Assembly (NCBI GenBank): GCA_002238865.1
Contig: MPNE01000002.1
Location: 124,001 to 188,000 of the forward strand
Direction: 5' to 3'
Length of the DNA stretch: 64,000 bases
DNA from: Gemmatimonadetes bacterium bin94
Lineage (GTDB): Bacteria; Gemmatimonadota; Gemmatimonadetes; Longimicrobiales; Gaopeijiaceae
Every line of letters starts with the position of its first letter. The stretch's first letter is position 1. Of the stretch, positions 5,220 through 51,464 are shown one piece after another. The position numbers and the translations under genes were made by a program. The notes below the pieces were generated by a model, which was given only the letters and a program-made list of their open reading frames with translations, did not search any database and was not told the origin of the DNA.

Positions 5220-5566
5220 GGTATTCCCTCCTTCCAGCCCATGGGCCGGGGTGACGAAAGCAGGCTCCTCGACGTTACAGTACGGGAATTCCGGCGGTAC
5301 GGGTTTCCCGGCCTCGAGATCGTGGAAGCACGGCACCCCCCGGACCCGCGGTGGAGGACCATGTGACGGGACCGGCGCGGCCGCCTCCGGCTCGACGCCA
5401 TCCGAATCCCCTCCCGTCCGTTCGCTCACGCTCAACGGACGGGGTGGGATTGACCTCCAGGTCGGCTCCCGCCGCCCCTCCCCGTCCTCCCCCCCGCCCC
5501 CCCGGGCCCGCCCGCCTCCGGCTCGACGCCGTCCGAATCCCCTCCCGTCCGTTCGCTCACGCTCAG
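5220..5566. other. Intergenic region with duplicated tRNA-Ser-associated element
   Basis: No credible gene. The first part (5220-5380) holds only the Shine-Dalgarno region of the minus-strand propeller gene. Bases 5381-5451 and 5512-5582 are a 71-bp direct repeat (69 of 71 identical), described separately. Bases 5452-5511 are an extreme C-tract spacer (runs of 5-7 C). Confidence 0.6.
5381..5451 (-). repeat. tRNA-less copy of the tRNA-Ser 3' hairpin element
   Basis: Matches 5512-5582 at 69 of 71 positions. Read on the minus strand it begins with the last 16 bases of tRNA-Ser(GGA) (T-stem and acceptor strand, 5436-5451). A 15-base loop follows, then an inverted copy of the tRNA end, then the 18-mer GGCGTCGAGCCGGAGGCG (5382-5399). 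The rest of a tRNA is absent: beyond 5451 the sequence diverges at once. It is therefore a duplicated 3' fragment, not a tRNA gene. Confidence 0.85.
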
Positions 5567-5589
5567 CGGACGGGGTGGGATTCGAACCC
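5512..5589 (-). repeat. Inverted-repeat element at the 3' end of tRNA-Ser(GGA)
   Basis: The last 21 bases of the tRNA (5567-5587 on the window strand) and bases 5531-5551 are inverted copies, 18 of 21 matching, separated by a 15-base loop (5552-5566). The innermost 8 base pairs, CCCGTCCG against CGGACGGG, are perfect. The 18-mer GGCGTCGAGCCGGAGGCG (5513-5530, minus strand) abuts the inverted arm. The transcript could fold into a long hairpin that competes with the tRNA acceptor and T stem, or act in termination or processing; there is no U-tract. Confidence 0.8.
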
Positions 5590-5650
5590 ACGCGGGCAGA
5601 TGCCCACACGATTTCCAGTCGTGCGCCTTAAGCCACTCGGCCACCCGTCC
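5567..5650 (-). tRNA. tRNA-Ser (anticodon GGA)
   Basis: Seven-pair acceptor stem GGACGGG/CCCGTCC with discriminator G, anticodon loop CTGGAAA, long variable arm typical of class II tRNA-Ser, and T loop TTCGAAT. CCA is not encoded. Last gene of the cluster; its 3' end takes part in an inverted repeat. Confidence 0.95.
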
Positions 5651-5666
5651 AAAATTCCTGGCAAAA

Positions 5667-5740
5667 TCGGGGCGCCCGGATTCGAACCGGGGACCTCTGC
5701 GACCCGAACGCAGCGCTCTACCGGACTGAGCCACGCCCCG
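5667..5740 (-). tRNA. tRNA-Pro (anticodon CGG)
   Basis: Acceptor stem CGGGGCG/CGCCCCG, discriminator A, anticodon loop TTCGGGT flanked by CTGCG/CGCAG, T loop TTCGAAT. CCA not encoded. Reads CCG codons, in keeping with the high GC content. Confidence 0.95.
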
Positions 5741-5777
5741 TGACTACCGGGTCCATCCATGAGGGAAGTGATCCGAG

Positions 5778-5861
5778 CGGAGGCGGAGGGACTCGAACCC
5801 CCATGTGCTTGCGCACGCCGCATTTCGAGTGCGGTGCCTTACCAATTAGGACTACGCCTCC
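5778..5861 (-). tRNA. tRNA-Ser (anticodon CGA)
   Basis: Acceptor stem GGAGGCG/CGCCTCC with discriminator G, anticodon loop CTCGAAA, long variable arm with a GTGC/GCAC stem. The D stem is weak (one U-G pair). CCA not encoded. Unlike the other two serine tRNAs here, it has no inverted copy of its 3' end downstream. Confidence 0.93.
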
Positions 5862-5896
5862 TGTATCCGAAGCCGATTGTGAGACATGGGCGGGGA

Positions 5897-5958
5897 CGCC
5901 TCCGGCTCGACGCCGTTCGTCTCCGGCGTTCGCCCCTCCGGTCGTCTCCGGCGTTCGC
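5897..5958. repeat. Palindrome-rich spacer with short direct repeats
   Basis: Lies between tRNA-Ser(CGA) and tRNA-Ser(GCT). It contains a further copy of the 18-mer (5897-5914) and two copies of the 16-mer CGTCTCCGGCGTTCGC (5918-5933 and 5943-5958). A small hairpin (GCACC/GGTGC) follows near 5958-5971. No coding potential is apparent. Confidence 0.6.
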
Positions 5959-5973
5959 ACCTCCCGGTGCGCC

Positions 5974-6047
5974 CGCCTCCGGCTCGACGCCGTTCGTCTC
6001 CCACTACCTCGGTTCGCTGACGCTCACGGAGGGAGTGGGATTCGAAC
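5974..6047 (-). repeat. Inverted-repeat element at the 3' end of tRNA-Ser(GCT)
   Basis: Same architecture as at tRNA-Ser(GGA): the 18-mer GGCGTCGAGCCGGAGGCG (5974-5991, minus strand), directly followed by an arm (5992-6012) that is an inverted copy of the last 21 bases of this tRNA (6027-6047; 17 of 21 match), with a 14-base loop (6013-6026) of nearly the same sequence as the other loop. The arm matches this tRNA's own acceptor strand, not that of tRNA-Ser(GGA). Confidence 0.75.
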
Positions 6048-6111
6048 CCACGTGGTCACAGGGACCAACGCCTTAGCAGGGCGCCGCTTTTAGCCGCTCA
6101 GCCATCCCTCC
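6027..6111 (-). tRNA. tRNA-Ser (anticodon GCT)
   Basis: Acceptor stem GGAGGGA/TCCCTCC, discriminator G, anticodon loop CTGCTAA, long variable arm (GGTC/GACC), T loop TTCGAAT. CCA not encoded. Only two bases separate it from the tRNA-Gln gene upstream. Confidence 0.95.
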
Positions 6112-6113
6112 AA

Positions 6114-6188
6114 GTAGCCCCGCCTGGGCTCGAACCAGGACTCTTCTGATCCAGAGTCAGACGTGTTGCCAGTTACACCACGGGGCTA
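6114..6188 (-). tRNA. tRNA-Gln (anticodon CTG)
   Basis: Acceptor stem TAGCCCC/GGGGCTA, anticodon loop CTCTGGA flanked by TCTGA/TCAGA, D arm GTGGTGTAACTGGCAACAC as in other bacterial tRNA-Gln. The discriminator position reads C, where bacterial tRNA-Gln normally has G. CCA not encoded. Confidence 0.9.
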
Positions 6189-6201
6189 GTGCCATATCGA
6201 G

Positions 6202-6275
6202 AGCCACCGGTCGGACTCGAACCGACGACCCCGTCATTACGAGTGACGTGCTCTACCAGACTGAGCTACGGTGGC
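6202..6275 (-). tRNA. tRNA-Thr (anticodon CGT)
   Basis: Acceptor stem GCCACCG/CGGTGGC, discriminator T, anticodon loop CTCGTAA in stem CGTCA/TGACG, T loop TTCGAGT. CCA not encoded. Confidence 0.95.
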
Positions 6276-6329
6276 GATATCTGCTTCGGGCGGCAAGCTA
6301 CGCGCTTGACAGCCCCTGGAAGAAATCCA

Positions 6330-6402
6330 TGGAGCCGAGGGGAGTCGAACCCCTGACCTCAGCGTTGCGAACGCTGCGCTCTCCCAACTGAGCTACGGCC
6401 CC
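6330..6402 (-). tRNA. tRNA-Ala (anticodon CGC)
   Basis: Acceptor stem GGGGCCG/CGGCTCC containing the G3-U70 alanine identity pair, anticodon loop TTCGCAA, discriminator A. Outside the anticodon arm it is identical to tRNA-Ala(GGC) at 6805. CCA not encoded. Confidence 0.95.
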
Positions 6403-6414
6403 GAAATGACCAAA

Positions 6415-6488
6415 TGGGCGCGACAGGACTCGAACCTGTGACCTCCACGATGTCAACGTGGCACTCTAACCAGCTGAGCTACGCGCCC
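6415..6488 (-). tRNA. tRNA-Val (anticodon GAC)
   Basis: Acceptor stem GGGCGCG/CGCGCCC, discriminator A, anticodon loop TTGACAT in stem CCACG/CGTGG. CCA not encoded. Confidence 0.95.
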
Positions 6489-6497
6489 TGCCATCAA

Positions 6498-6571
6498 TGC
6501 GCCCGGGAGGACTCGAACCCCCAACCCCCTGATCCGTAGTCAGGTACTCTATCCAATTGAGCTACGGGCGC
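6498..6571 (-). tRNA. tRNA-Arg (anticodon ACG)
   Basis: Acceptor stem GCGCCCG/CGGGCGC, discriminator A, anticodon loop CTACGGA in stem CCTGA/TCAGG. A34 should be deaminated to inosine by TadA. The T stem has one G-U pair. CCA not encoded. Confidence 0.94.
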
Positions 6572-6590
6572 CCTGCCGAAAACTCCTGAA

Positions 6591-6674
6591 TGCCCACGAC
6601 AGGACTCGAACCTGTACGTCCTTTCGAACACTGGTCCCTCAAACCAGCCTGTCTACCAATTCCAGCACGTGGGC
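6591..6674 (-). tRNA. tRNA-Leu (anticodon GAG)
   Basis: Class II tRNA: acceptor stem GCCCACG/CGTGGGC, discriminator A, anticodon loop TTGAGGG in stem CTGGT/ACCAG, long variable arm. CCA not encoded. Confidence 0.94.
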
Positions 6675-6694
6675 GCTCGCCGTTCCACTTCGAG

Positions 6695-6779
6695 TGCTCG
6701 GGGAGGGACTCGAACCCTCACGGGGTTAACCCCCACAGGATCCTGAATCCTGCGCGTCTACCAATTCCGCCACCCGAGC
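6695..6779 (-). tRNA. tRNA-Leu (anticodon CAG)
   Basis: Class II tRNA: acceptor stem GCTCGGG/CCCGAGC, discriminator A, anticodon loop TTCAGGA in stem CAGGA/TCCTG, variable arm with a GGGG/CCCC stem. CCA not encoded. Confidence 0.95.
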
Positions 6780-6804
6780 CTTCCAGCGTACCGGTCCATC
6801 ACAA

Positions 6805-6877
6805 TGGAGCCGAGGGGAGTCGAACCCCTGACCTCCTGAATGCCATTCAGGCGCTCTCCCAACTGAGCTACGGCCCC
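6805..6877 (-). tRNA. tRNA-Ala (anticodon GGC)
   Basis: Acceptor stem GGGGCCG/CGGCTCC with the G3-U70 pair, anticodon loop ATGGCAT in stem CCTGA/TCAGG, discriminator A. CCA not encoded. Between it and the next tRNA (6878-6993) no further gene is visible. Confidence 0.95.
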
Positions 6878-6993
6878 AGCAGTGCGAACATGAACGAACA
6901 ATCCGCGCCAGCGTACCGCCCGCAAGCGGGATGCGCCCGGCGGACCGCCAGGAAAAACTCGTTCCACGACCCAGGTTTTCAACCAACGTCCAG

Positions 6994-7068
6994 CGGGGCT
7001 GACGGGACTCGAACCCGCGGCCTCCGGTGTGACAGACCGGCACTCTAACCAAACTGAGCTACAGCCCC
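6994..7068 (-). tRNA. tRNA-Asp (anticodon GTC)
   Basis: Acceptor stem GGGGCTG/CAGCCCC, discriminator G, anticodon loop CTGTCAC in stem CCGGT/ACCGG, T loop TTCGAGT. CCA not encoded. Confidence 0.95.
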
Positions 7069-7101
7069 ATTTTTCTTGCTTGGCCAGGTCAACCCGACCG
7101 A

Positions 7102-7173
7102 TACCCTCACGGGGAATCGAACCCCGATCTCCACCTTGAAAGAGTGGTGTCCTAACCGTTAGACGATGAGGGC
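7102..7173 (-). tRNA. tRNA-Glu (anticodon TTC)
   Basis: Acceptor stem GCCCTCA/TGAGGGT with a terminal G1-U72 wobble, discriminator A, anticodon loop CTTTCAA in stem CCACT/GGTGG. It is the only U34 elongator tRNA in the cluster. CCA not encoded. Confidence 0.94.
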
Positions 7174-7184
7174 AAGACTCCGTA

Positions 7185-7258
7185 CAGGCCCGGAGGGACT
7201 CGAACCCCCAACCGCCGGTTTTGGAGACCGGTGCTCTACCAAATTGAGCTACGGACCT
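7185..7258 (-). tRNA. tRNA-Trp (anticodon CCA)
   Basis: Acceptor stem AGGTCCG/CGGGCCT with one U-G pair, discriminator G, anticodon loop CTCCAAA in stem CCGGT/ACCGG. CCA tail not encoded. Confidence 0.95.
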
Positions 7259-7269
7259 GGATTCTCCAA

Positions 7270-7342
7270 TGGCCAGGGACGGAATTGAACCGCCGACACC
7301 GCGATTTTCAGTCGCGTGCTCTACCAACTGAGCTACCTGGCC
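7270..7342 (-). tRNA. tRNA-Phe (anticodon GAA)
   Basis: Acceptor stem GGCCAGG/CCTGGCC, discriminator A, anticodon loop CTGAAAA in stem CGCGA/TCGCG, T loop TTCAATT. CCA not encoded. Confidence 0.95.
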
Positions 7343-7462
7343 CATCGCCAACTGTCCCGACAAAAACCGACCGGGTCAATTCCGGCTCCGGACTCGTCGG
7401 GAGTCCGTACCGGACGACCTGGCCGATTCGCGCAGTCCGCTACCACGAACCGCTACGCCAGA

Positions 7463-7483
7463 AACGCCGCGCGAGGCGGCGTT
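7463..7483 (-). terminator. Hairpin downstream of the initiator tRNA
   Basis: AACGCCGC and GCGGCGTT form a perfect 8-pair stem around a 5-base loop, 20 bases after the initiator tRNA 3' end. On the minus strand it is followed by only a short T run, so it may be a weak terminator or a processing hairpin rather than a full stop before the remaining tRNA genes. Confidence 0.35.
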
Positions 7484-7502
7484 CCGGGCCTGGATGCAAT
7501 CA

Positions 7503-7576
<74 letters not shown>

Positions 7577-7587
7577 ACAAGATCTGA

Positions 7588-48952: not shown

Positions 48953-49624
48953 CTAGTCCGCGGGCTCGAGAACGCCGCTGGGACAGGACACCCCGGTCCC
49001 GCCGATGCCGCAGTAACCGCCGGGGTTCTTTGCCAGGTACTGCTGGTGGTACTCCTCGGCGTAGTAGAACTCCGGAGCCTCCACGATCTCGGTGGTGATG
49101 GCGCCGAAGCCCATCCGCGCAAGTTCGGCCTGGTAGCGGACCCGTGAATCCTCCGCCAGGCGCAACTGCCCGTCGCCGACGGTGTAGACGGCCGACCGGT
49201 ATTGGGTGCCGATGTCGGCGCCCTGCCTCATTCCCTGGGTTGGATCGTGTCCCTCCCAGAAAGCCGAGAGCAGCGTCCCATAGTGGATCCTGTCAGGGTC
49301 GAAGACGACCAGGACTGCCTCCGTGTGTCCTGTCGCGCCCGTGCACACCTCCCGGTAGGTCGGGTTGGGGGTGACGCCGCCCTGATAGCCAACCGCCGTC
49401 GAGTAGACCCCTGGAAGCTCCCAGAACATGCGCTCGGCACCCCAGAAGCACCCCATTGCGACGTAGGCCCGCTGGAAGCCCTCCGGGAAGGGCGGCTTGA
49501 TCCGGTTGCCGCTCACATGGTGGAGGCCGGATACGCGAAGCGCCTCGGCTCGTCCCGGCAGTGCCTCACGGGGATCCGGAGTTTCGTGTTTCCTGCGACT
49601 TGCAAACATATGACGGGAATCCAT
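48953..49624 (-). CDS. msrA: Peptide-methionine (S)-S-oxide reductase MsrA
   Basis: 223 residues from ATG 49624; ATG 49609 is an alternative, and neither has a good Shine-Dalgarno. The catalytic cysteine is Cys59 in [38 protein letters not shown] and [13 protein letters not shown] are family marks. Cysteines near the C-terminus ([16 protein letters not shown]) can resolve the sulfenic acid. It repairs oxidised methionine. It leads a minus-strand operon with the channel and DUF1707 genes. No msrB is present. No signal peptide, so cytosolic. Confidence 0.95.
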
Positions 49625-50999: not shown

Positions 51000-51464
51000 A
51001 TGAGTGACCCGTTCTACACCACCCGCTCCTCGGTCGCCAAGGTGGACGGCATCCACCGGCGCGCGACTCTGGAAGATGGCACCGAAATCGACTTCGGCGT
51101 CCACGGACCGATCAAGGCGCACTACCGGTTGGACGCCGAGCCGGATCGGCCCCTGCCCGTCGACTACCTGGTCGCAGCTGCCGCCGGCTGACTACTCGGG
51201 ACCCTCAACGGCGCACTGGAGGTGCGCGGGATTCCGATGGCCAATGACGCGATTCGCGTCAAGGCGGAAGGCGTGAACGAAGTCGTCGACAGGATGGTGG
51301 TGCTGACGCGAATTCACGCGCACTACACGATCCGGGTGCCGGAGGGGGCGCCGCGCGACAAGGTGGATCGCGCACTGGCGACCCATGTGGCGAAGTGCCC
51401 GACGGCACAGAGTCTGAAGGGCGCGGTGGATGTTACCTGGTCGGCGGATGTGACGGAGGGGTAG
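51000..51464 (+). CDS. OsmC family peroxidase, probable selenoprotein (in-frame UGA at codon 64)
   Basis: 154 codons from ATG 51000 to TAG, open except for UGA at 51189-51191 (codon 64). Before it: ATLEDGTEIDFGVHGPI and LPVDYLVAAAAG, the start of the long OsmC helix. After it, in the same frame: LLGTLNGALEVRGI, VKAEGVNEVVDRMVVLTRI and Cys133 in HVAKCPTAQSLKGAVDVTW. OsmC proteins reduce peroxides with two cysteines, the first following (A/G)A-x-G exactly where UGA stands. No second stop or frameshift is present, as would be likely in a decayed gene. A hairpin fitting a bacterial SECIS lies 25 bases after UGA. A recent Cys-to-stop mutation is the alternative. OsmC-like selenoproteins have been reported from metagenomes, as I recall. 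Confidence 0.75.
51211..51227 (+). promoter_or_regulatory. SECIS-like hairpin inside the OsmC coding region
   Basis: GCGCAC (51211-51216) pairs perfectly with GTGCGC (51222-51227) around the loop TGGAG. The distance from the UGA to the loop is 25 bases, within the 16-37 usual for bacterial SECIS elements, and the loop has G at its second position. CCC (51202-51204) and GGG (51228-51230) may add a lower stem beyond a bulge. The hairpin also encodes the family motif GALEVR, so part of it could be coincidence. Confidence 0.6.

Follow-up and report, generated by a model that had tools for sequence, protein, structure and literature searches.

A gene in the analysed window, the whole 64,000-nucleotide stretch of DNA, very probably encodes a thiol peroxidase of the OsmC/Ohr fold that carries selenocysteine (Sec), inserted by SelB, as its predicted peroxidatic residue. 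To judge from the sequence, the UGA that interrupts its reading frame almost certainly specifies selenocysteine, which would make the product the selenium counterpart of a common enzyme that detoxifies peroxides. The frame starts with ATG and runs through 63 sense codons, TGA as codon 64, 90 further sense codons and TAG. The features of the coding region are as follows.

51000..51464, plus strand: predicted OsmC-family selenoprotein gene, 154 residues including Sec64, then a TAG stop.
51162..51164, plus strand: Asp55, acidic residue nine positions before Sec, invariant and aligned to Glu of YhfA 1ML8.
51189..51191, plus strand: UGA codon, predicted Sec64, at the peroxidatic Cys position, TGA in 48/48 distinct genes.
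51396..51398, plus strand: TGC codon of Cys133, the probable resolving cysteine, invariant in 51 aligned Sec-OsmC proteins.

The initial annotation had described a single in-frame UGA in an otherwise intact 154-codon OsmC gene, placed it at the first redox cysteine of the family and noted that the second cysteine was retained; coordinates and residues were all confirmed. The sequence reads VAAAAG-U-LLGTLNGALEV around the UGA and HVAKCPTAQ around Cys133. The PF02566 OsmC match spans the UGA (residues 49-147, E-value 5.5e-15, 56.1 bits against a gathering cut-off of 27.5). In the alignment, Thermus OsmC (1UKK), YhfA (1ML8) and ordinary Cys-OsmC proteins from this phylum all have Cys in the UGA column. 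Residues U64 and C133 are invariant and reproduce the OsmC spacing of about 65 positions between the two redox residues.

The AlphaFold2 model, built from the window protein's own alignment, adopts the OsmC/Ohr fold (pLDDT 96.1, pTM 0.88), and OsmC/Ohr structures rank first by both Foldseek and VIA-align. The best solved matches are Thermoplasma Ta0195 (2ONF), YhfA (1ML8), E. coli OsmC and Ohr proteins, with Z-scores of 12-15.7. The long central helix (53-75) carries U64, and C133 is placed where the last two helices join; the two residues align with the OsmC cysteines. The protein shares the fold (Z 13-14) and both redox positions with E. coli OsmC (1NYE) and Chromobacterium OhrB (6EB4), whereas these OsmC/Ohr reductases, at about 15-20% identity, have Cys where the window protein has Sec. 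YhfA of E. coli (Z 14.6, 22% identity) likewise has Cys at this position, and it too has an acidic residue at -9 relative to the redox residue.

We infer the peroxidase function and its reductant from the fold and the residue positions. By analogy with Ohr/OsmC enzymes, Sec64 of the folded enzyme would most likely attack an organic hydroperoxide and be converted to a selenenic acid, which Cys133 would resolve to a selenenyl-sulfide; a dithiol, for example a lipoyl protein, would then reduce the latter. In Ohr-type enzymes a Glu lies ten residues before the Cys. The equivalent position here is Val54, so substrate and rate could differ.

It is possible, though clearly less likely, that this OsmC-fold selenoprotein is not a hydroperoxidase but a disulfide reductase, a selenium or sulfur carrier, or a YhfA-type enzyme handling electrophiles. 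Such roles would agree with the YhfA-like acidic residue nine positions ahead of Sec, with YhfA 1ML8 and Ta0195 2ONF being the best fold matches, and with the lack of conserved partner genes alongside it beyond the genus. However, both OsmC/Ohr redox residues are in register and invariant, and at comparable sites in other proteins Sec goes together with peroxide chemistry.

The neighbouring genes, for MsrA, an ion channel and a PLP enzyme, recur mainly among members of the genus and are mostly missing outside it. They therefore give little functional hint, and the idea of a conserved operon from which the substrate could be read was rejected. The MsrA gene (48953-49624, minus strand) encodes a Cys form (GCFWG) and overlaps the start of the ion-channel gene; an MsrA gene near the Sec-OsmC gene is common to members of the genus. 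Elsewhere in the window, 17 tRNA genes are clustered at 5566-7577 on the minus strand.

The genome (97.5% complete, 83 contigs) was searched for the selenocysteine machinery, and all four components that the initial annotation had proposed to look for are present. The tRNA-Sec, with anticodon UCA, scores 79.7 bits, over the Rfam cut-off, and SelB, SelA and SelD score 306.6, 487.9 and 388.4 bits, each over its cut-off. The SelD gene (L099 1281-2498, minus strand) contains an in-frame UGA in the motif GAG-U-ACKLG. In-frame UGA is known for SelD selenoproteins, and the SelD of this genome is itself a probable selenoprotein. Among 148 relatives, SelB exceeds the curated cut-off in 77/82 genomes with UGA-OsmC versus 27/66 without (Fisher p=1e-12, a value that is overstated because related genomes are not independent). 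Four of the five UGA-OsmC genomes without SelB over the cut-off have SelA. The fifth, G024, is a fragmentary assembly (88% complete, 830 contigs) with neither SelB over the cut-off nor SelA.

The UGA is followed by a hairpin within the coding sequence.

51211..51227, plus strand: bacterial SECIS-like hairpin, 7-bp stem GCGCACU/GGUGCGC, apical loop GGA at 51218-51220.

It sits 19-36 nt after the UGA, with its loop beginning at 26 nt. The stretch 51189-51240, 52 nt that start with the UGA, folds better than shuffled sequence (z-score -3.0), and the folding energy of the 48 nt from the UGA is -18.9 kcal/mol. The consensus model for the bacterial SECIS specifies a loop of 3-9 nt, a stem of 4-16 bp, a G among the first two loop nucleotides, a location 16-37 nt after the UGA and an energy <= -7.5 kcal/mol (PMC13188914); the hairpin at 51211-51227 agrees with every item of this model. 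Across 47 distinct sequences, 98.5% of the cells are paired and 17 are double compensatory, and sliding the partners abolishes both signals. In the second OsmC subfamily (see below), the stems are mostly GCGUGCU/GGCACGC or GCGCGCU/GGCGCGC, which represent paired changes; between the subfamilies, double changes of C-G to U-A and A-U to G-C keep the pairing.

In the window gene's own subfamily, codon usage within the hairpin is nearly frozen. Six consecutive codons are near-fixed (GGC 48/48, GCA 47/48, CTG 48/48, GAG 45/48, GTG 48/48, and CGC 47/48), and the same amino acids outside the hairpin use three or four codons. The hairpin Ala is GCA in all but one of the 48 genes, while conserved Ala elsewhere is mostly GCG or GCC. 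Median synonymous divergence (pS) is 0 in the hairpin versus 0.44-0.48 elsewhere. Genome content and RNA conservation together suggest that SelB with Sec-tRNA(Sec) would recognise this hairpin and insert Sec at codon 64.

The UGA has to be decoded somehow, and Cys would be chemically suited to the position; near-cognate decoding as Trp or Cys, or genome-wide reassignment of UGA, is nevertheless very improbable. The genome holds a complete Sec system including tRNA-Sec(UCA), the association with SelB is strong, the tRNA-Trp encoded in the window carries the standard CCA anticodon, and a frozen, covarying hairpin after the UGA is needed only for SelB-dependent decoding. Reassignment of UGA was rejected on the Sec machinery and the hairpin. 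The assignment of the UGA to Sec64 in the initial annotation is thus supported by tRNA-Sec, SelA, SelB and SelD, by the covarying downstream hairpin and by the invariance of the TGA.

This invariance was assessed with genes from whole genomes and from a second collection, which held mostly the same genes; removal of duplicates left 47 relatives, which together with the window gene make 48 distinct genes. TGA occupies the column in all 48, which come from independent assemblies and extend down to about 60% identity, and so it does not reflect chance or sequencing error. The second OsmC subfamily, at 30-45% identity, likewise has TGA at this column. The dN/dS ratio against genus members (NG86) is 0.105 before the UGA and 0.118 after it, and values of about 0.11 on both sides indicate that the frame downstream of the UGA is translated and under selection. 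A pseudogene or a sequencing error, to which a lone stop codon inside a gene that is intact elsewhere might point, is scarcely credible and was rejected, given the identical TGA in these independently assembled genes and purifying selection that is as strong behind the stop as in front of it.

A profile search was run on 395 genomes of the phylum, and all of the best 150 matches listed carry exactly one TGA. Twelve genomes with weaker matches were opened for inspection. The matches above 80 bits in them are UGA forms, a stop-free match of 67 bits is a fragment that breaks off at the Sec column, and those with Cys are distant, ordinary OsmC proteins scoring <=43 bits. No Cys orthologue of Sec-OsmC was found among the best 150 matches listed from the 395 genomes and in these twelve genomes. 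Sec proteins and Cys proteins are split with full support in the tree. The initial annotation had anticipated Cys at the UGA column in close homologues; instead, all of them show UGA and none has Cys, which makes the evidence stronger than the predicted Cys column. The contig scan of the second collection returned Gemmatimonadota plus one bin labelled Deltaproteobacteria (RHO3_bin_65), in which the gene lies on two contigs (L063, L064) with neighbours as in Gemmatimonadota, matching those seen in the genus of the window; this bin is probably mislabelled or mixed. A plasmid search for homologues gave no match.

The same genome contains a second UGA-containing OsmC gene (L096, G000:C13:16698-17135, minus strand), about 33% identical, with the motifs ULVGT at Sec and RCPVY at the resolving site. 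Within the phylum, both genes appear to exist in the Sec form only. A divergent UGA-OsmC in another genome (L101, G141:C14:160354-160809) does not form the common hairpin and may use a different SECIS.

As the initial annotation had stated, OsmC-like selenoproteins are known from marine metagenomes: three sequences with the motif UxxT were reported from the Sargasso Sea in 2005 (PMC1088965) and five from the Global Ocean Sampling in 2008 (PMC2398784), and they appear in reviews (PMC9312934, PMC13188914). The main texts of these four papers make no mention of Gemmatimonadota. Like the earlier proteins, the window protein has a PF02566 OsmC domain and a predicted redox motif that includes Sec. 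However, this motif is U-L-L-G-T, that is, UxxG with Thr at +4, and differs from the published UxxT; moreover, the earlier reports comprised three to five Sec sequences beside Cys forms, whereas we found a large family and no Cys member. The window protein scores 32.8 bits against the NCBIfam model NF041052 (OsmC_like_Se), below its cut-off of 95, and reaches the cut-off of no NCBIfam OsmC model. A distant relative of its clade scores 26.6 bits with NF041052, and the second subfamily, including L096, has no match. Thus, the kind of protein is already known, and the branch of the window gene is a distinct and larger one that, within the Gemmatimonadota genomes, is apparently Sec-only.

This Sec-OsmC branch is widespread in Gemmatimonadota. 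Judged by bin names, many of the relatives look like members of sponge MAG sets, which fits the report that SelA and SelB are common in sponge-symbiont bins and absent from most related references (PMC5649159). Annotation pipelines tend to truncate such genes at the UGA, and the OsmC_like_Se model does not reach the branch, so a widespread Gemmatimonadota enzyme is probably mis-annotated. The tight link with SelB suggests that these bacteria keep the selenocysteine system partly on account of such OsmC proteins. We put forward, tentatively, that Gemmatimonadota have two ancient, obligately Sec-containing OsmC subfamilies with no Cys forms, spread over several families, many of them sponge- or sediment-dwelling and probably oxygen-exposed. 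If true, this would amount to selenium-dependent peroxide defence in aerobes and would run counter to the view that selenoproteins are seldom retained in aerobes and that Cys and Sec forms can stand in for each other. The apparent absence of Cys forms makes a strict need for Sec in the reaction testable.
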